Source: Brachionus plicatilis
Taxonomy: Eukaryota; Rotifera; Eurotatoria; Ploima; Brachionidae
Assembly: GCA_010279815.1 (NCBI GenBank)
Contig: QEOQ01000092.1
Coordinates: 1,006,299 to 1,070,298, forward strand
Reading direction: 5' to 3'
Length of the DNA: 64,000 nt
This document shows, in pieces, positions 4,337 to 63,421 of this stretch. Under the pieces are notes generated by a model that saw only the letters and a list, made by a program, of their open reading frames with translations, ran no database searches and was not told the DNA's origin. Numbering within the stretch: position 1 is the stretch's first letter; the number at the start of each line of letters is the position of its first letter. Both the position numbers and the translations under genes were made by a program.

Positions 4337-5262
4337 ATGTCCATCATTGATCCGAAATCGATACCTATGTCAAGTTTAGACTTAGGCTACGTTGATACAA
4401 ATGGTGTCAAAAAGGATCTCTTGATTGATTATTTCACAGATAATGGTTTGTTAATGTTAGAAAGTGCTTTAAGTTCTTTTTTAAAAAATTTAAATTTTAT
4501 ATATGCTGATAAGTCAATTACATGCGGCGAATGTAAACAAATTTATCATTTAAAATGTGCTAAAAGAACTTACGCACCAACTAAGAAAATTTGGCAATGT
4601 AATGATTGTTCTAATTAGTTAATATCTTTTTTCTTTGAATATTTTTCTAACCTTAATTACTTTTACCTTTTTAGATATTAAATTCGATCCTAAGTTAAGC
4701 TTGAAAAACTTATTGGAAAAGATCAATGAGAAAGCTATGTCAAAAATTAATCTAATACGCAGGATAAAAGGTTTAATACTAAAAAACTCAATTGAATTGT
4801 CCAAGATCGTATTCAAAAGCTTTATTCGTGTCCAGTTCGATTACTCTTTTATTCCGATTTCATGTTCCACGCAAAAAATAAGCTCTGATCTACAAAAACT
4901 ACAGAACAAAATATTAAGGCACATTTAGTATTTTCCGATCAAGACAAGAATAACCAAAATTCACCAGCATTTAAAACTCGACATGTTAGCCATAAGATCC
5001 GAACGTATTTTACACAGATTTCTCCATAAACGAATTGAGCATCAACAATTTAACAGCGACTTAAAGAGGTACTTTTCCACTGCACTAGATTTGAATCAAA
5101 AATTTTATACACTTTTTGGAAAGTTCAATTTTATTTTACAGGACATCCGAAGATAAATATATGCAATTATTTCCTTTTTTTTATTTCATTATTTACCAAA
5201 AACTAGTCAATTTTAATTTTCACTTATTTATTAAATAAATTATAATAATAATAATAATTCTT
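4337..5262 (+). pseudogene. LINE remnant: PHD-finger fragment plus RT C-terminus
   Basis: 4337-4618 encodes 93 residues ending in a half PHD finger (C-G-E-C...Y-H-L-K-C...W-Q-C-N-D-C). From about 4670 to 5155 a LINE C-terminus follows: 'DPKLSLKNLLEKINEKA', then 'RSQFDYSFIPIS'-type sequence and 'LQKLQNKILRHI', with stops. The endonuclease and most of the RT are missing, so there is an internal deletion. The 3' end is an AATAATAAT tail at about 5231-5260. PHD fingers at the start of LINE ORFs are known; reading both pieces as one element is my inference. Confidence 0.65.
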
Positions 5263-12329: not shown

Positions 12330-12429
12330 CATCAATTAGTGTAATGCAATTCTATAATTAAACTTTAATAGTTTTGAAGTTTATTTATTCACAATAAAAA
12401 AAGAATTAAAAATAAAAGTTACTTAATTG

Positions 12430-13014
12430 ATGAACTTTTTAGTCAATAATTTATTATTAATTTTATTCTTATTCAAAATTATCTCATGTCAAACTAATTG
12501 TTCGCAAAATTGGTATTGTCCACTTTCCACTGAAACAAAAAAATTAACCATTTTGGAGAATGGTTCATGCGAATGCAAATGCTGCCAAAGCTTAATTTTA
12601 AACATTTGTTCAGATTGCCTAGAAATAGATCAAAATTATTTAGTTACAGAGAGTGATTGTCATGATTATGCATGTTCAACGTTGTGTAATAAAATGTCAT
12701 CATGTGATAGTATTTGTAGCTATAATAACGAATCTGAATGTTTTTTTGCGGATCTCATTTGTAGAAATTTTGATTCAAGTTTTGTATTTAAAACAGAATA
12801 TACCAATTATCGGACTGTTTGTGGAAAAATAAAATCACCGTTTACTGTGATAGAGACTACAATTTTGGAAAATTCAGCTCTCACTAATTTAGAGACTACC
12901 ACTAAACAAAATTCACCAAGTGTAAATCAAAGTAATTCTTCTGATAAAATAAAAACTAAATTTTCAATGCTTTTGATAATATTTAAATTTCTTTTTAATA
13001 AAAATTTATTTTAG
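12430..13014 (+). CDS. small secreted cysteine-rich protein, copy 1
   Basis: This is an intronless frame of 194 residues from the ATG at 12430. It has a strong signal peptide (MNFLVNNLLLILFLFKIISC) and then about 110 residues with some 19 cysteines, including C-x-C-x-C-C and C-x-x-C pairs, which suggest a disulfide-stabilised extracellular domain. A Ser/Thr/Asn-rich stalk with N-glycosylation-type sites follows. The hydrophobic C-terminus (MLLIIFKFLF) could be a transmembrane segment or a GPI-anchor signal. I do not recognise the family. The paralogue at 17031 differs by one amino acid near the signal-peptide end (T versus A after CQ). Possible introns were not detectable. Function unknown. 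Confidence 0.6.
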   Translation: MNFLVNNLLLILFLFKIISCQTNCSQNWYCPLSTETKKLTILENGSCECKCCQSLILNICSDCLEIDQNYLVTESDCHDYACSTLCNKMSSCDSICSYNNESECFFADLICRNFDSSFVFKTEYTNYRTVCGKIKSPFTVIETTILENSALTNLETTTKQNSPSVNQSNSSDKIKTKFSMLLIIFKFLFNKNLF

Positions 13015-14507: not shown

Positions 14508-16931
14508 TATTATTTATTATTATTATTTCAACTCAATCAAAGAGACCTAAGGTCAAAACCCGTAATGGGATGATTGAGCCCATTTATTAATAAAAAAATT
14601 CACATAAAAATTATAATATTAATAAAAAATTAAATTTCTGAAATTAACATCAAAATTAGAAAAAATTTTACAAAATTTTATAAAAATTAAATTAATGTTA
14701 TTGTTTATTCTTCGCTTAAATAGGGCAAAATCTAAATGGAGATCATCAATAAGTAATTTATTGATGAACTTAGAATAAAAATAATCAAACGTTTTTTCAA
14801 CATAATCATTAAACTTTCCTTTTGAAGGAACAAGATAGTCATTTGAATTTCTTAGATTATAATCAACATTTTTCGAGCGGTTGCTGATTAATACTTCTTT
14901 TAAGTCAACAGGCGATGTTTTTAAATTTACAATTTTATGTACAAAATGAGCAAGACGTTTGATAATTCTATGCTGGAAGCAGTCGATGTTAAATTTATTC
15001 AACTCAATATTTAAAGTGTTAAAGTCATCATTGCCATGAATATTTGGGCGAATATTTAATAATCTTTGAACACAAAAGTAATAAGAATTAGATAATTTTT
15101 GAATTGATCTTTTTGTAAAATATATTGATAATGATAGACAATAGTCAAAGTACGGCATGATAAATGATTTAAAGAACTGGAGCTTGACTTTGTGCGATAA
15201 GTAAAATAATCTTCTAATAGCATAAAGTCGTTTATTTATGGAAGTTCTTAAGCTTATTACGTGTTGCAAAAAAGTGAGCTTGTTATCAATTGTTACTCCG
15301 AGAAGCTTAAATTTATCAACAACTTCAACCATAATACCATTTATTTCAATATTACATGGAAAGTTAAGTTTTGTTTTATTTGAAATAAACATAATTTTAG
15401 TCTTGGACCAATTAATATCTATACTATTGAATTTACACCAAGTAAATAACTTTTGAATTGATTCAAGAAAAGAATGAATAAGTTCAGTTAGGTTATCCCC
15501 TGTTTTAATTAAAGTTGTATCATCCGCAAATAATTTCACGATGAAATCAGAAAGGAATAAAACAATATCATTTATGTAAATCAAAAATAGAAGTGGGCCT
15601 AGGACACTCCCCTGGGGGACACCTAATTTGAGTGTTCTTGAGTTAGAAGTGAACTCATCAATCTTCACTACCTGGGATCTATTCGCAAAATAACTTTCTA
15701 GTAGTGTGATTGAAGAATCATCAAAACCATAACAGCTTAATTTAGTTAGTAGAAGTTTATGGTCGACAGTATCAAAAGCCTTTCTAAAATCTATAAACAG
15801 AAAGATACCGATTAAACGTTTGCTTTTAATTTGGTTCATTTTCGAGATAATCTCATGTAAGGCTGATTCACAGCCATGGGTTGATCTGAAACCATGTTGA
15901 TTACTTGAGAGTATCTTAGCTTCAGCTAGATAAATGCTTATTTGCTTATGAATAAGTTTCTCAAACAGCTTTGCAATTGGTGGTAAAACAGAAATGCCAC
16001 GATAACTATTTAAATCATCAGTTGAGCCTTTATTTTTAAATAATGGTGTAACAACGGACATTTTCCAATCATTCGGCATTGAACCCGTTAAGATTGAAAA
16101 ATTAAATAAATAAGCTATAATGGTGTGTAGTTTAGCTGAACTACCCTTCAGAATCTTAATAGGTATTCCACAAGAACCGATACCACTAGAGTTTGAGATC
16201 TCTGAGAGGAGTTTTTTTATCTCATGTCTATTCGTAAAACTGAATCTGAAATTAGCAGCTTTCATAAGGCCAAGTTTGGAAAACTGATCCTGGATGAAGC
16301 TCTTAGAATCATTATTCGACAATTCTGATGAAGATCTTATCGACGTGAAGAATTTGTTAAATATCTCACACATGTTTAACTTATCATTGATAACCTCATT
16401 TTCATTTTTAATACAGATTAAAGGTGTATTTGAGTTTTTATCAGATTTCATGAAGATTAATGGTGAGTAGAATTGCCAAAATTTTTTAGCATTTTTGAAA
16501 TCATTCAAAGTTTTATCCTGAAAAAAATGAATTAGTTTCTCATCATTTAGCAGCTTGAACTGCTTCTTAAAATAATCATAAACCAATTTATCATCTTCAT
16601 TACCAGATAGTTTGAATTTCTTGTAGGAGATATCCCGTGAATGTTTCAAACAAATAAGATCATCATCATACCATGGGAACTGACTTGACATATTTATAGA
16701 AATTTTACGAATGGGCGCGGTATTATCTATAATTTTAATCAGTTTTTCTTTGACAAACGTCCATTTTTCATCAATTGAAGAAAAATTCTTGAATCCACTC
16801 CAATCAATTTCATCTATTTGAGTACAAATGTTTTCCGTATTCACTAGAGAAAGGTTTCTACATAAAATAGTCTTCTGTTTACATTTCAGTTTAGCAACTG
16901 TTAATTTAGCTAAAACAAATTTGTGGTCACT
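14508..16931 (-). mobile_element. 5'-truncated LINE lying exactly between the two duplicated copies
   Basis: The element runs right to left. Its 3' end at 14508 is a TTATTATTA tail (AATAAT on the sense strand) and its 5' end at 16931 abuts copy 2 directly. The endonuclease is cut off within its last motif (S-D-H), so this is a typical 5'-truncated retrotransposition product. Its neighbours are the two copies of one 2.18-kb segment, so the duplication occupies the place of a target-site duplication. Confidence 0.85.
14619..16931 (-). CDS. LINE ORF2 fragment: reverse transcriptase with C-terminal domain
   Basis: One uninterrupted frame runs from the truncation point to the stop at 14619. It starts at the endonuclease end (SDHKFVLAKLTVAK), followed by about 240 residues of linker and RT N-terminal sequence. 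RT blocks follow: NDWKMSVVTPLFKNKGSTDD, NQHGFRSTHGCESAL, FIDFRKAFDTVDH, GVPQGSVLGPLLFLIYIND and the catalytic LFADDTTL, then the thumb (LLGVTIDNKLTF, PYFDYCLSLS). The intact frame marks a young copy, but it lacks the nuclease and a promoter and so cannot move alone. It belongs to the CR1/jockey/L2-like LINEs. There is no ATG at the start because the 5' end is lost. Confidence 0.85.
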   Translation of the reverse strand, partial: SDHKFVLAKLTVAKLKCKQKTILCRNLSLVNTENICTQIDEIDWSGFKNFSSIDEKWTFVKEKLIKIIDNTAPIRKISINMSSQFPWYDDDLICLKHSRDISYKKFKLSGNEDDKLVYDYFKKQFKLLNDEKLIHFFQDKTLNDFKNAKKFWQFYSPLIFMKSDKNSNTPLICIKNENEVINDKLNMCEIFNKFFTSIRSSSELSNNDSKSFIQDQFSKLGLMKAANFRFSFTNRHEIKKLLSEISNSSGIGSCGIPIKILKGSSAKLHTIIAYLFNFSILTGSMPNDWKMSVVTPLFKNKGSTDDLNSYRGISVLPPIAKLFEKLIHKQISIYLAEAKILSSNQHGFRSTHGCESALHEIISKMNQIKSKRLIGIFLFIDFRKAFDTVDHKLLLTKLSCYGFDDSSITLLESYFANRSQVVKIDEFTSNSRTLKLGVPQGSVLGPLLFLIYINDIVLFLSDFIVKLFADDTTLIKTGDNLTELIHSFLESIQKLFTWCKFNSIDINWSKTKIMFISNKTKLNFPCNIEINGIMVEVVDKFKLLGVTIDNKLTFLQHVISLRTSINKRLYAIRRLFYLSHKVKLQFFKSFIMPYFDYCLSLSIYFTKRSIQKLSNSYYFCVQRLLNIRPNIHGNDDFNTLNIELNKFNIDCFQHRIIKRLAHFVHKIVNLKTSPVDLKEVLISNRSKNVDYNLRNSNDYLVPSKGKFNDYVEKTFDYFYSKFINKLLIDDLHLDFALFKRRINNNINLIFIKFCKIFSNFDVNFRNLIFY

Positions 16932-17030
16932 ATCAATTAGTGTAATGCAATTCTATAATTAAACTTTAATAGTTTTCAAGTTTATTTATTCACAATAAAA
17001 AAAGAATTAAAAATAAAAGTTACTTAATTG

Positions 17031-17615
17031 ATGAACTTTTTAGTCAATAATTTATTATTAATTTTATTCTTATTCAAAATTATCTCATGTCAAGCTAATT
17101 GTTCGCAAAATTGGTATTGTCCACTTTCCACTGAAACAAAAAAATTAACCATTTTGGAGAATGGTTCATGCGAATGCAAATGCTGCCAAAGCTTAATTTT
17201 AAACATTTGTTCAGATTGCCTAGAAATAGATCAAAATTATTTAGTTACAGAGAGTGATTGTCATGATTATGCATGTTCAACGTTGTGTAATAAAATGTCA
17301 TCATGTGATAGTATTTGTAGCTATAATAACGAATCTGAATGTTTTTTTGCGGATCTCATTTGTAGAAATTTTGATTCAAGTTTTGTATTTAAAACAGAAT
17401 ATACCAATTATCGGACTGTTTGTGGAAAAATAAAATCACCGTTTACTGTAATAGAGACTACAATTTTGGAAAATTCAGCTCTTACTAATTTAGAGACTAC
17501 CACTAAACAAAATTCACCAAGTGTAAATCAAAGTAATTCTTCTGATAAAATAAAAACTAAATTTTCAATGCTTTTGATAATATTTAAATTTCTTTTTAAT
17601 AAAAATTTATTTTAG
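17031..17615 (+). CDS. small secreted cysteine-rich protein, copy 2
   Basis: Paralogue of the gene at 12430, 194 residues, with the same signal peptide, the same cysteines and the same hydrophobic C-terminus. The only amino-acid difference I see is Ala instead of Thr two residues after the signal-peptide Cys; the other differences are silent. Both copies keep about 100 bp of identical upstream sequence, so each could have the promoter-proximal region. Function unknown. Confidence 0.6.
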   Translation: MNFLVNNLLLILFLFKIISCQANCSQNWYCPLSTETKKLTILENGSCECKCCQSLILNICSDCLEIDQNYLVTESDCHDYACSTLCNKMSSCDSICSYNNESECFFADLICRNFDSSFVFKTEYTNYRTVCGKIKSPFTVIETTILENSALTNLETTTKQNSPSVNQSNSSDKIKTKFSMLLIIFKFLFNKNLF

Positions 17616-20142: not shown

Positions 20143-20717
20143 GCATCAATGAAAAAAAAAAAATTTAATCGATTTTTCATCGATGAGCAGTGAGCAGATT
20201 CATTATGATGCATCGATGAAAAATAAAAATTTCATCGGTTTTTCATATATTTTTTTTAATTTTTTTTTTATCGAATTAAAATGAATTTAAAATTTAATTT
20301 TTAAATCTTTATTCATGATTATTTTTTTTTAATTTAATATACTTACATTATATTTATGATAAAAATAGAAAAAATATTTAAGGCTGGTTAAAAAAATCAA
20401 AATTAACATGTTAAAAAAAAAACTGTTCTAAATCTGATAAAAAATTACAAAATTAATTTAATTATTCTCTTCGAATTAAATATACAATTTTTATATAAAT
20501 TAACAATAAAAAAATTTTTATACTAATATTATGAACATAAACTGTAGAAAAAAATTTTTAGATTATAGATTCTCAAAATGTAACAATAATTTATAAGTCC
20601 TCCTTGCCTCTCCACAAATTTTCCGGAGTGTACCACTAATTAAAGCCGGCTTCGATAGTCGTCTTGTTTTGCTTTTTTGACCACGGTTAACTTGAATTGT
20701 TGAATGTGTCTCAACTA

Positions 20718-20796
20718 AAGTTCACGAAATTCAAAACTATAGTGCTATCTGAATTTCACATTTTTGACTCAAAATTCGTAATCTACGCCCTCGAAA
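20718..20796. repeat. inverted repeat, left arm at assembly gap
   Basis: These 79 bases are the reverse complement of 21160-21238. The arm runs right up to the first N, so the unassembled part is the inside of a hairpin. Confidence 0.9.
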
Positions 20797-21075
20797 NNNN
20801 NNNNNNNNNNNNNNNNNNNNNNNNNNNNNNNNNNNNNNNNNNNNNNNNNNNNNNNNNNNNNNNNNNNNNNNNNNNNNNNNNNNNNNNNNNNNNNNNNNNN
20901 NNNNNNNNNNNNNNNNNNNNNNNNNNNNNNNNNNNNNNNNNNNNNNNNNNNNNNNNNNNNNNNNNNNNNNNNNNNNNNNNNNNNNNNNNNNNNNNNNNNN
21001 NNNNNNNNNNNNNNNNNNNNNNNNNNNNNNNNNNNNNNNNNNNNNNNNNNNNNNNNNNNNNNNNNNNNNNNNNNN
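20797..21075. other. assembly gap (279 N)
   Basis: A run of N only. Frames reported across it are meaningless. It sits inside an inverted repeat, which probably caused the gap. Confidence 0.99.
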
Positions 21076-21159
21076 GATTTTGAGTCTTAAAGAGCAACAA
21101 CTTTTTAAAGGGTTTGCTATTTTTGGAACCCTGGGTGTAAAAAATTTTTTTTTTTGGAT

Positions 21160-21238
21160 TTTCGAGGGCGTAGATTACGAATTTTGAGTCAAAAATGTGA
21201 AATTCAGATAGCACTATAGTTTTGAATTTCGTGAACTT
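21160..21238. repeat. inverted repeat, right arm at assembly gap
   Basis: Reverse complement of 20718-20796. Between the gap and this arm are about 84 bases with no partner on the left side of the gap. Confidence 0.9.
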
Positions 21239-22164
21239 AACGCCAGAGTTTTTCGTTGACCTCGATAGCCGATTCGATTGGGATATAGGATTCGGTTCTA
21301 GACTCATTTTTTCCAGATTCCATTCTTATTTGACTATTTTCCGAAGCAAAGCCGATTTTGAAAAATCCTTCCTCTATTAATTTAGATTAGCCTTAAAAAA
21401 AATTAATTTGTTTATTTATTCAATAAATTATTCTTGTTTAATTAAAAGAGTATAAATCAAAAAAAGCCTAATTTGTCAAAAAAAAAAATTAAACAAATAT
21501 TAAATATAGTAATATTAAATTTTGGCTAGGCTAGGTTTTAAGACACAAGTTTAAGTCAAAGTCACTAAAGTCAATTTTTTAACTGGGTTCAAAAAATCGT
21601 TAAGTCAAGTAAAATCAAAGATTTTTAAGACAATACTAATATTTTAATTTTTACCGTTACATGCAGTCATTAACGCGGCCACTTGAATTTTTGATCGACA
21701 AGAAGGGAAAAATAAATAAAATCTTTAGGATTTCTATTACTAAATATAATAAGATTGACTTGAAACAAAATTTAATTTTAAGGCTTTGGCTTGACTTAAG
21801 ACTTTTAATTAACTGTGATTTTGACGAATCTGAACAGAAATTGAGTTTTCTTAACAAATAACCAATGAATGACCAAGTTTTAAAAATTATAGCTAGCGTG
21901 CTTAAAAGAAACAAACTACAAACCTAGTTAAGAAAAATTAATGACTGAATTTCTAATGCATATATGCTTTCTTAATATTACTCAAACATAAATTCAAAGT
22001 TCATGCAAGGTTCAAATAGTGACTCCTCCTATTTTTTTAATTAATTTTTTGGTATCTAACAAAAATATGAATTCTGATTGGGGATTTAATAGTCTCATCG
22101 TAAAATCAGTGGGTTATGTGATGATTCTTCGATGAACTTCACTTATTCCTCAATGAAACATTAG

Positions 22165-60908: not shown

Positions 60909-63421
60909 TCAAAATAAACTAACTAAAAATAGACTAAAAAATAAAAAATAAGAGTTGACAGTTAGAATATTGGAATAATTAAAAATATTGTAAGTTTTAG
61001 TAGTTGTTTTTCGGACCTCTTTTGTAGTTAAAATTGATGAACTTGTCATTGATGTTGTAATTTTTGTGACCTTGCTTGTTGATTTTTGTGTACAAAATTC
61101 ATCTACCATCGGTTCAGCAATTATAGGCTTTTTAGTTGATATGGTAATATTCTGCTCAATATATTTAAATTTTTAATCTTCAATTTTTAAAGTAAATTAT
61201 AATACCCTATTTGAAATGCATGATTGTCTTCTAGGATTCTTATTGTGAAAATCCTCGAATTTTTGAATCAATTCTTCGCTGGGTATTTGGACTCGGAGTT
61301 TTAGTGCTTCTTCTCCTGGTTTATAAGAATCCGCTAGAGTCAAATTTAAATTGGCATTCAATTCACCCGAACTTTAAATAATTAAAAAAGATTTTAAGTG
61401 AAAAATAATTAAATTACTTTTTGAATTGAGACAAAAAGTCAATCCACTGTTTTTGTTCGAATTCTTCGACACATAGAGATGTCGATGTTTTCGGATAATA
61501 CCAAATAAAAGTGAAACTTGAAAAATTTTAATTAAAAAAATTAAAATTCATTCACAGTTCTTTAACTCCTACCACTAAACAAAATAAAAAATTAATCTAT
61601 TTTAATTTAAATTCGAAAAATTTACCATTTCTTCTCTTGTTGATAAACCCCCCTTCGAAAGTTACTGTTATTTAAATTATCAAATAAAAATCAAAGCAAA
61701 TTTTACATAAGTAAATTCCTTTTTATTTTTGGTGGTATAAACACATTCTGTAACCAATTCATCTCCCTGTAAAAAAAAAAAAGAATTTTTTTTTCTAGAA
61801 AAATTTTTAAGATTTTTATACTTTTTTTAAGCTGACAGGCTTGTTCAAAAAATTATAATATTGATAATTAAAGTCATAGTATTTGTTGTTCGCTAAATAT
61901 GCCACTTCTTTTCCATCACGGATCACTTTGGTATAAATTTCCTTGCCTTTATTATTTTATTTTAATTAAATTTAATCCTTGTAAAAAAAAATGTATATAA
62001 AATTTACCAGTTAGATGAGTGTGAGGCAAAGTACTAAATACTTTGATTTCTTCTTGTTCTTCAAAAAATTTCTAATCAAAATTTTAAAATTGGAAAAAAA
62101 AATTAAATTCTAAAATTACATTCACACAATCACTAGAACATCCATAATTAGCTCTAAATGTATCTGCACCAGGCGGAACAATAAGCCCTCCATAATTCTC
62201 ACTTGCTCCTACTGTAAAAACACCAAATTCATTTTTACGGTAGTTTTTGGTACCATACAATCGCACTCCAGAATTATCAGTAATATCTTTTTTTAATCTT
62301 GGATTATCAAAATGAATCTCAAGATAAAAATATCTAGTTTCTTCGTCAGGACCTCCCATTGGATAGGCCAAGTCTTCAGGAAAATCTTGGATCTAAAAAT
62401 ATTAAAATAAATTTAACAAAAAAACTTTTTTGGACTTTACAGTTGCTCCTCCGACCGCCCAAACAAGCGAAATTTTGCGGCAATGCTGAATTGCGTTTAG
62501 CCATTCTCCTGAAAAGCATTCACCTTGCTGGAGTAAATCGTTATTCTTTAAATAAATCTCCTCAAATTCTGATCCACATTCAACGAGATTCCAATGATGC
62601 AGATTTTCTTCAGTACCCGGTGAATACAAGGTTTCATACTTTTAAGGAAATTTCTTAATAAAAGATCTAAAAATATTTTATTTTTTACTCTGATTAAATG
62701 ACGTTTTTCCTTGATCCATGAATCAGGCAATTTAAACATTGCACAATGGTACACAGTGTCTTTGAGGCCATCGAAAGTATACTTTATTTTGTATTTTATT
62801 GGTAATATAATTTCGAAAATTTTTTTTAAATCTTTAACTTACATTAACTCTGTATTCAACTTGATCAACTTCATCTAAATTAAACTTAGCCACATTGTTT
62901 AGCGAGCTAATTAAAGGAACCGATTTTATGCCTCTATTCATTCCATGATATCCAATGTCATCATCAATTAAAATTGTTCCGAATGCAAAAATGGTCTTCG
63001 GAGTTCCAGTTGGAATGTCCAAATCCTCATTGGACTCGTCACATATTCTAATTTTTCTGCTAAATTTTGTGACTAAATATCCATCTTTTTGAAATACAGA
63101 TATCGGAAACCAATTCTGTGTCTGATCTACAATCACTTTTCTTCCTCTAATATGTCTATCTGTAAAATGGTATGTTCCATCGGTTTTAAGCCAAGAAACA
63201 ACAACATCTGAATTATCCATTCCACCAGTAGGACTGATTCCAAAAGCAGCCCATCCTGTTGTCTTCACATGAGTTTCCATCAAAATGTCAGTGTCATTGT
63301 AAGTCCAAAACAAGTAGTAAATGTCTGGCTCTTTTAGGACTAATTCATTCGAATAAGGTTCGGTGGGCACCGGAGTTGCAAAAGCAGTACCGAACAATAT
63401 TAGCAAACTTAACAATATCAT
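60909..63421 (-). CDS. DBH/MOXD-like copper monooxygenase, twelve exons including a 2-nt microexon
   Basis: Type II copper- and ascorbate-dependent monooxygenase of the secretory pathway. Exons, in order: 63421-62843, 62781-62689, 62638-62441, 62392-62120, 62071-62008, 61946-61822, 61766-61707, 61652-61626, 61574-61573, 61516-61418, 61371-61206, 61151-60909; total 1929 nt, 642 residues, all GT..AG, introns of 48-61 nt. A signal peptide (MILLSLLILFGTAFA) is followed by a DOMON domain, then the two copper lobes. All six expected ligands are present: H238/H239 (NLHHWNLVEC), H317 (LEIHFDNP), H398/H400 (LPHTHLTG) and M473 (GGLSTREEM, then C474). A Thr-rich stalk and a hydrophobic tail (SYFLFFSLFLVSLF) suggest membrane attachment. 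Substrate unknown; MOXD1-like is more likely than true DBH, by the membrane-type tail. Exons 8-9 and the last exon are the least certain. Confidence 0.85.
61573..61574 (-). other. predicted 2-nucleotide microexon (TG)
   Basis: Between GAAGAAATG|GTAAAT (donor at 61625-61624) and TTTTCAAG|TTTCAC (acceptor at 61518-61517) the gap is 109 nt, twice the normal intron length of this gene. In the middle is TTTTGTTTAG|TG|GTAGGAG. Using TG as an exon gives introns of 51 and 56 nt and makes TG+T, the Cys codon that follows the copper-ligand Met in this family. A single 109-nt intron would shift the frame and hit a stop. Confidence 0.65.

Follow-up and report, generated by a model that had tools for sequence, protein, structure and literature searches.

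The rotifer Brachionus plicatilis very probably carries a DBH-like copper monooxygenase gene, intact in appearance, whose 12 exons include an exon 9 made up of the two nucleotides TG. These two bases would follow the codon for the CuM methionine and begin the codon for a conserved cysteine, and we infer from the genomic sequence that they are included in the mature mRNA. The analysis covered a window of 64,000 nucleotides (G000:C13:1006299-1070298), and the genome searched comprised 102.9 Mb in 173 contigs.

Gene Model and Locus

The window is AT-rich (GC 22-34% in 4-kb steps). The gene occupies positions 63421-60909 on the minus strand, and its 12 exons encode 642 residues plus a stop. The first-pass annotation had summed the gene to exactly 643 codons, a figure that holds if the stop is counted; as independent support for the two-base exon it falls away, because every frame-keeping model yields whole codons. 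The features of the model are listed below, with the evidence in parentheses.

62843..63421, minus strand: exon 1, 579 nt, phase 0; signal peptide-like start and DOMON domain (four spliced alignments, Pfam)
62689..62781, minus strand: exon 2, 93 nt (spliced alignments)
62441..62638, minus strand: exon 3, 198 nt (spliced alignments)
62120..62392, minus strand: exon 4, 273 nt (spliced alignments)
62008..62071, minus strand: exon 5, 64 nt; H-T-H copper-ligand motif (alignment of relatives, spliced alignments)
61822..61946, minus strand: exon 6, 125 nt (spliced alignments)
61707..61766, minus strand: exon 7, 60 nt; contains Cys452 (spliced alignments)
61626..61652, minus strand: exon 8, 27 nt; GGLSTREEM, last codon ATG (homology, spliced alignments)
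61575..61625, minus strand: intron 8, 51 nt, phase 0; GTAAAT...TTTTGTTTAG (spliced alignments)
61573..61574, minus strand: putative exon 9, TG; bases 1-2 of the Cys474 codon (enumeration, spliced alignments, relatives)
61517..61572, minus strand: intron 9, 56 nt, phase 2; GTAGGAG...TTTTTCAAG (spliced alignments)
61418..61516, minus strand: exon 10, 99 nt; T, then FTFIWYYPKTST... (5' end in four of four alignments; 3' end uncertain)
61372..61417, minus strand: intron 10, 46 nt (model)
61206..61371, minus strand: exon 11, 166 nt (both ends in two of four alignments)
60909..61151, minus strand: exon 12, 240 nt plus stop; hydrophobic C-terminus

With TG as an exon, all 11 introns are GT-AG introns of 46-61 nt whose donors start GTA. 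Introns 8 and 9 had been described as ordinary in length, which they are; the range of 48-61 nt given for the other nine should read 46-61 nt, intron 10 being the 46-nt one. For introns 1-9 the four spliced alignments concurred; they diverged on intron 10 and in part on intron 11. At the 3' end of exon 10, a donor at 61432 was used in two of the four, a 166-nt intron from 61472 was placed in one, and the remaining one stopped short of the donor. The donor of the model, 61417, was used by none of them and was retained because it is a GTA donor and in frame. Exon 12 started as modelled in one of the four alignments and 3 nt earlier in another. An exon of 60 nt also stood at the place of exon 7 in four of seven paralog alignments.

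Elsewhere in the window, two nearly identical 195-codon open reading frames lie on the plus strand (12427-13014 and 17028-17615), with a reverse-transcriptase-like open reading frame, labelled by eye, between them on the minus strand (14619-16844). The pair resembles a duplication that encloses a retroelement. Around 20697-21307, both strands translate as X, which reflects masked bases inside overlapping open reading frames.

Enzyme Family and Copper Site

Judged from its domains and alignments, the gene product is a DOMON-bearing copper type II ascorbate-dependent monooxygenase of the DBH-like kind. The 507-aa product of exons 1-10 matched the Pfam families DOMON (81.4 bits), Cu2_monooxygen (82.2 bits), and Cu2_monoox_C (131.6 bits), all above cut-off. 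The same product aligned with solved DBH (4zel, residues 56-492) and PHM, without gaps through EEMC. A B. plicatilis protein fragment (P0024) was 97.2% identical to the gene product over 250 residues, which places the source within the B. plicatilis complex in all likelihood. In a 21-row alignment of the gene product with 20 of 22 protein-search matches, H238, H239, H317, and M473 were invariant, and H398 and H400 were conserved in at least 90% of rows. By comparison with PHM, we take these six residues to be the copper ligands. The methionine that ends exon 8 corresponds to the CuM methionine in the alignment to PHM and DBH; in PHM, Met314 is the CuM ligand.

The positions of exons 8 and 10 were set by homology, since relatives read like GGLSTREEMC..F(I)WYYP across them. 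The pattern around the methionine in the family is [E/D]EMC, much like the E-E-M-C of the first-pass annotation. We gathered 53 relatives from three protein searches, 31 of which extend to Met473. Cysteine directly follows this methionine in 28 of the 31, and the same 28 also have cysteine at position 452; the other three (P0001, P0023, and P0027) end or leave the alignment at the methionine. Cys452 and Cys474 presumably match the PHM disulfide pair Cys293-Cys315, and by this analogy the split Cys474 would probably form a disulfide with Cys452.

Two Bases That Would Restore the Reading Frame

Exon 8 ends in GAAGAAATG, followed by the donor GTAAAT, at 61626, and exon 10 begins with TTTCACTTTTATTTGG at 61516 (longer start, TTTCACTTT). 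Both the coordinates and the frames agree with the first-pass annotation, as does the division of the 109-nt gap between these exons into 51 + 2 + 56 nt by a TG at 61574-61573, which stands between TTTTGTTTAG and GTAGGAG. The junction with TG would read GAAGAAATGTGTTTCACTTTTATT, and ATG + TG + T-TTC-ACT gives Met-Cys-Phe-Thr in frame, while a direct junction of exon 8 with exon 10 would read GAAGAAATGTTTCAC. That a direct join breaks the frame was borne out by enumeration of GT or GC donors with AG acceptors located no more than 30 nt inside exon 10, for introns of at least 30 nt: of three in-frame single joins, all contained stops and none was open. This result also bears on a stwintron, in which nested introns would be taken out in two steps until all 109 nt are gone. 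Such nested introns have been described for fungi (PMC8469720). Complete removal here would join exons 8 and 10 out of frame, with no open single join to be had, and we give this arrangement a negligible probability.

Only two choices of a two-base exon gave an open frame, TG (Cys) and GA (Asp). An in-frame exon of 8 nt in the gap was rejected because it contains a stop. The GA exon would use the acceptor GGTAG and the donor GTTAAAG, with introns of 57 and 50 nt, and would replace the cysteine with aspartate. It is in frame and open, but we regard it as extremely unlikely: the 28 proteins named above have cysteine here and the remaining three end or leave the alignment, all four spliced alignments preferred TG, the B. 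calyciflorus endings EMW described below require TG and then G, and all 11 donors of the TG model start GTA. TG is the sole enumerated canonical solution that preserves both the frame and the conserved cysteine.

Spliced Alignment and Chance Level

A de novo intron finder, run over 178 kb, returned two clusters at first and later many coding false positives; it was dropped for that reason, and homology-based spliced alignment was adopted. The purpose-written protein-to-DNA aligner had no exon-size rule and was not told of TG. In all four runs (P0002, P0003, P0005, and P0006; 36-49% identical), it returned the introns 61625-61575 and 61572-61517, choosing the TG that had been proposed to restore the frame and place Cys after Met.

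The chance of such an arrangement was estimated in several ways. When the gap was shuffled 20,000 times with dinucleotides preserved, 0.37% of the results contained an AGTGGT that left each intron 40 nt or longer, and the genome frequency of AGTGGT (50 matches in 344 kb, both strands) gave an expectation of 0.41%. This level of about 0.4% is small, yet alone not negligible. When any non-stop pair was allowed in AG-NN-GT, the rate rose to 5.7%, and much of the weight therefore lies on the match to cysteine. In a realignment control with one homologous segment, the real score was equalled by one of 300 shuffled gaps, and at least seven further shuffles came within 5 points of it. These near-scoring shuffles mostly had a single 104-nt intron and a residue other than Cys at the place of the cysteine.

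Paralogs in the Same Genome

Seven of nine larger paralog loci (L015-L020 and L023, with L021 and L022 left out) were subjected to spliced alignment, and 30 introns were called. Four longer than 300 nt were excluded from the counts; these and one of 100 nt may be misalignments. Among the 26 introns shorter than 300 nt, 25 measured 45-65 nt and the remaining one 100 nt. Introns 8 and 9 therefore look normal, and an intron of 109 nt would be unusual here. The 26 introns also matched in their borders: 16 end in AAG and 22 start with GTA, three of those with GTAG, and one donor, GTAGGAA, resembles the GTAGGAG of intron 9. Compared with these introns and the nine others of the gene, the acceptor and donor flanking TG are canonical and of the type usual in this genome. 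Of 23 internal paralog exons, none was shorter than 60 nt, the size of the smallest, which indicates that the aligner is not prone to inserting tiny exons.

None of the eight other C-domain loci that reach the Met-Cys site is split there. All eight read it within a single exon, seven as [E/D/Q]EMC and one as EVC, so the paralogs are no help in dating the two-base exon. As far as these loci go, the exon would be confined to the gene's own family branch.

Two further observations came from this survey. L015 (G000:C42:714000-723000) is 45% identical over residues 20-193 and has counterparts of exons 1-7. After position 4705 of this locus, no exon past exon 7 was found by tblastn or by eye over 1.7 kb, none with the copper-ligand Met was seen in the next 1.5 kb, and the locus is possibly truncated. 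About 8-10 kb past the end of the window, an inverted copy of exons 1-8, 98.6% identical to the gene, lies at G000:C13:1078515-1080391 (within L012) and breaks off directly after the ATG of exon 8. A base change places an in-frame stop in its exon 3, so it looks like a pseudogene.

Apparently Truncated Gene Models in B. calyciflorus

If intron 8 is spliced and reading continues past TG, the window gives EEMW followed by a stop (ATG, TGG TAG). Two B. calyciflorus proteins end in just this way: P0001 (476 aa, 68% identical to the gene product) and P0023 (227 aa, 65% identical to it) both terminate in ...EMW. The two are 68% identical to each other and represent two different genes. Because read-through in the window produces the same ending, these proteins point to the same two-base exon. 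Their genes appear, from the proteins, to have TGG and then a stop after the Met codon, like TG with a GTR donor. The acceptor before TG in these genes is one that we infer from protein models ending in EMW. An acceptor-TG-GTR mark would then be common to three genes in two species. P0027 (51% identical) reads ...EEM-VSWVLACDFIG and then ends, which fits an intron donor at that phase-0 position. When proteins were searched with the C-terminal part, no separate B. calyciflorus tail turned up. As annotated, P0001 and P0023 probably are without their true C-terminal part, their models ending at the two-base exon.

These endings could also be taken at face value. The gene would then truly end, or be regulated, at EEMW; its usual transcript would retain intron 9 or skip TG and encode a shorter protein. 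The two B. calyciflorus models that stop at MW favor such a reading. The stop itself is not separate evidence for it, because TG with a phase-2 GTR donor behind it necessarily spells TGG-TAR. Against a true ending at EEMW, exons 10 to 12 as modelled stay open over 168 codons and retain family features, among them FTFIWYYP and Cys residues further on, and a product cut off there would lack the cysteine that 28 of the 31 proteins extending to Met473 possess. We consider this ending very unlikely.

The same models bear on an assembly or sequencing error, by which an ordinary single intron of 109 nt would have lost two bases at the edge of exon 10. Both B. calyciflorus gene models fail at this place, which marks it as hard to annotate without showing the cause, and one of the 26 short paralog introns has 100 nt, unless it is a misalignment. 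An error would, however, have to remove exactly TG at a splice edge while AG-TG-GT also stood in the middle of the gap (about a 0.4% chance). A length of 109 nt is about twice that of the usual intron, and the EMW ends require TGG after ATG in the assembly of another species. Taken together, these points make an error highly improbable, a shade more so than a true ending at EEMW.

Proposed Splicing and Its Consequences

Introns 8 and 9, of about 50 nt each, would be recognized by intron definition and removed one after the other rather than together, because an acceptor complex on intron 8 and U1 on the donor of intron 9 should not fit two bases apart. If intron 9 were removed first, exons 9 and 10 would form an ordinary exon of 101 nt. 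If intron 8 were removed first, a 29-nt exon ending in ATGTG before GTAGGAG would result, with the donor rebuilt as in splicing of the recursive type. The sequence would permit either order equally. AG does not directly precede GT as in a zero-nucleotide recursive site, two bases lying between them. For its own one-base exon, the APC11 paper proposes the same combination (PMC4674806).

The frame is lost if TG is skipped, and retention of intron 9 leads to an immediate TGG TAG stop. Only faithful inclusion of TG would thus yield the cysteine, the remainder of the C-terminal copper domain, and the tail. Since both simple faults remove all three, stepwise splicing might act as a switch, the two-nucleotide exon having been kept in several Brachionus copper monooxygenase genes since before the two species split. 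We offer this idea as a speculation that is more probably wrong than right by a wide measure.

If RNA bears it out, an animal nuclear gene would contain a spliceosomal exon of two nucleotides, one that at least two rotifer species appear to have kept. It would also provide a compact test case for a spliceosome that faces an acceptor only two bases from a donor, with introns of about 50 nt on both sides. The two public B. calyciflorus proteins, apparently minus their C-terminal part, suggest that such exons may falsely end gene models. Models that end at a conserved site with an odd tail of one or two residues could betray further exons of this kind.

Comparison with Known Ultra-Small Exons

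Among open-licence papers searched by title and the start of the abstract, no report of a two-nucleotide spliceosomal exon was found. Recursive sites in Drosophila are not known to retain anything between acceptor and donor, whereas the rotifer gene would keep two bases, with a 51-nt intron before them and a 56-nt intron after. The one-base exon of placozoan cox1 is mitochondrial and hence lies outside the nuclear spliceosomal system. Recursive splicing in Drosophila occurs at juxtaposed acceptor-donor sites in long introns (PMC8605326, PMC6110457) and is alike in that practically adjacent sites imply stepwise removal. Placozoan cox1 has a 1-bp exon (PMC5436844), an ultra-small animal exon like the rotifer TG, but in a mitochondrial gene. 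Very small exons in animal nuclear genes include the alternatively spliced 3-bp micro-exon of Drosophila homothorax (PMC7392893) and the 4-bp exon of MPC1 (PMC9929638), both larger than TG.

The one-nucleotide exon of Fusarium CYP621A, confirmed with public reads (PMC12940212), resembles the rotifer case in that an otherwise unassemblable conserved motif of an oxidising enzyme revealed it. It differs in belonging to a fungus, in its single nucleotide, and in being read-confirmed. Single-nucleotide exons are also described in Arabidopsis APC11 (PMC4674806) and plant VPS55 (PMC8831610). Like TG, these exons are too small for simultaneous use of both splice sites, essential to the frame, and missed by annotation. 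They are conserved among species, to which the counterpart here would be the protein-level mark in B. calyciflorus. The plant exons have one nucleotide and are proven by RNA, whereas the rotifer exon has two, lies in an animal nuclear gene, and is read from sequence. With these likenesses and differences, the rotifer TG exon would join the known class of ultra-small spliceosomal exons.
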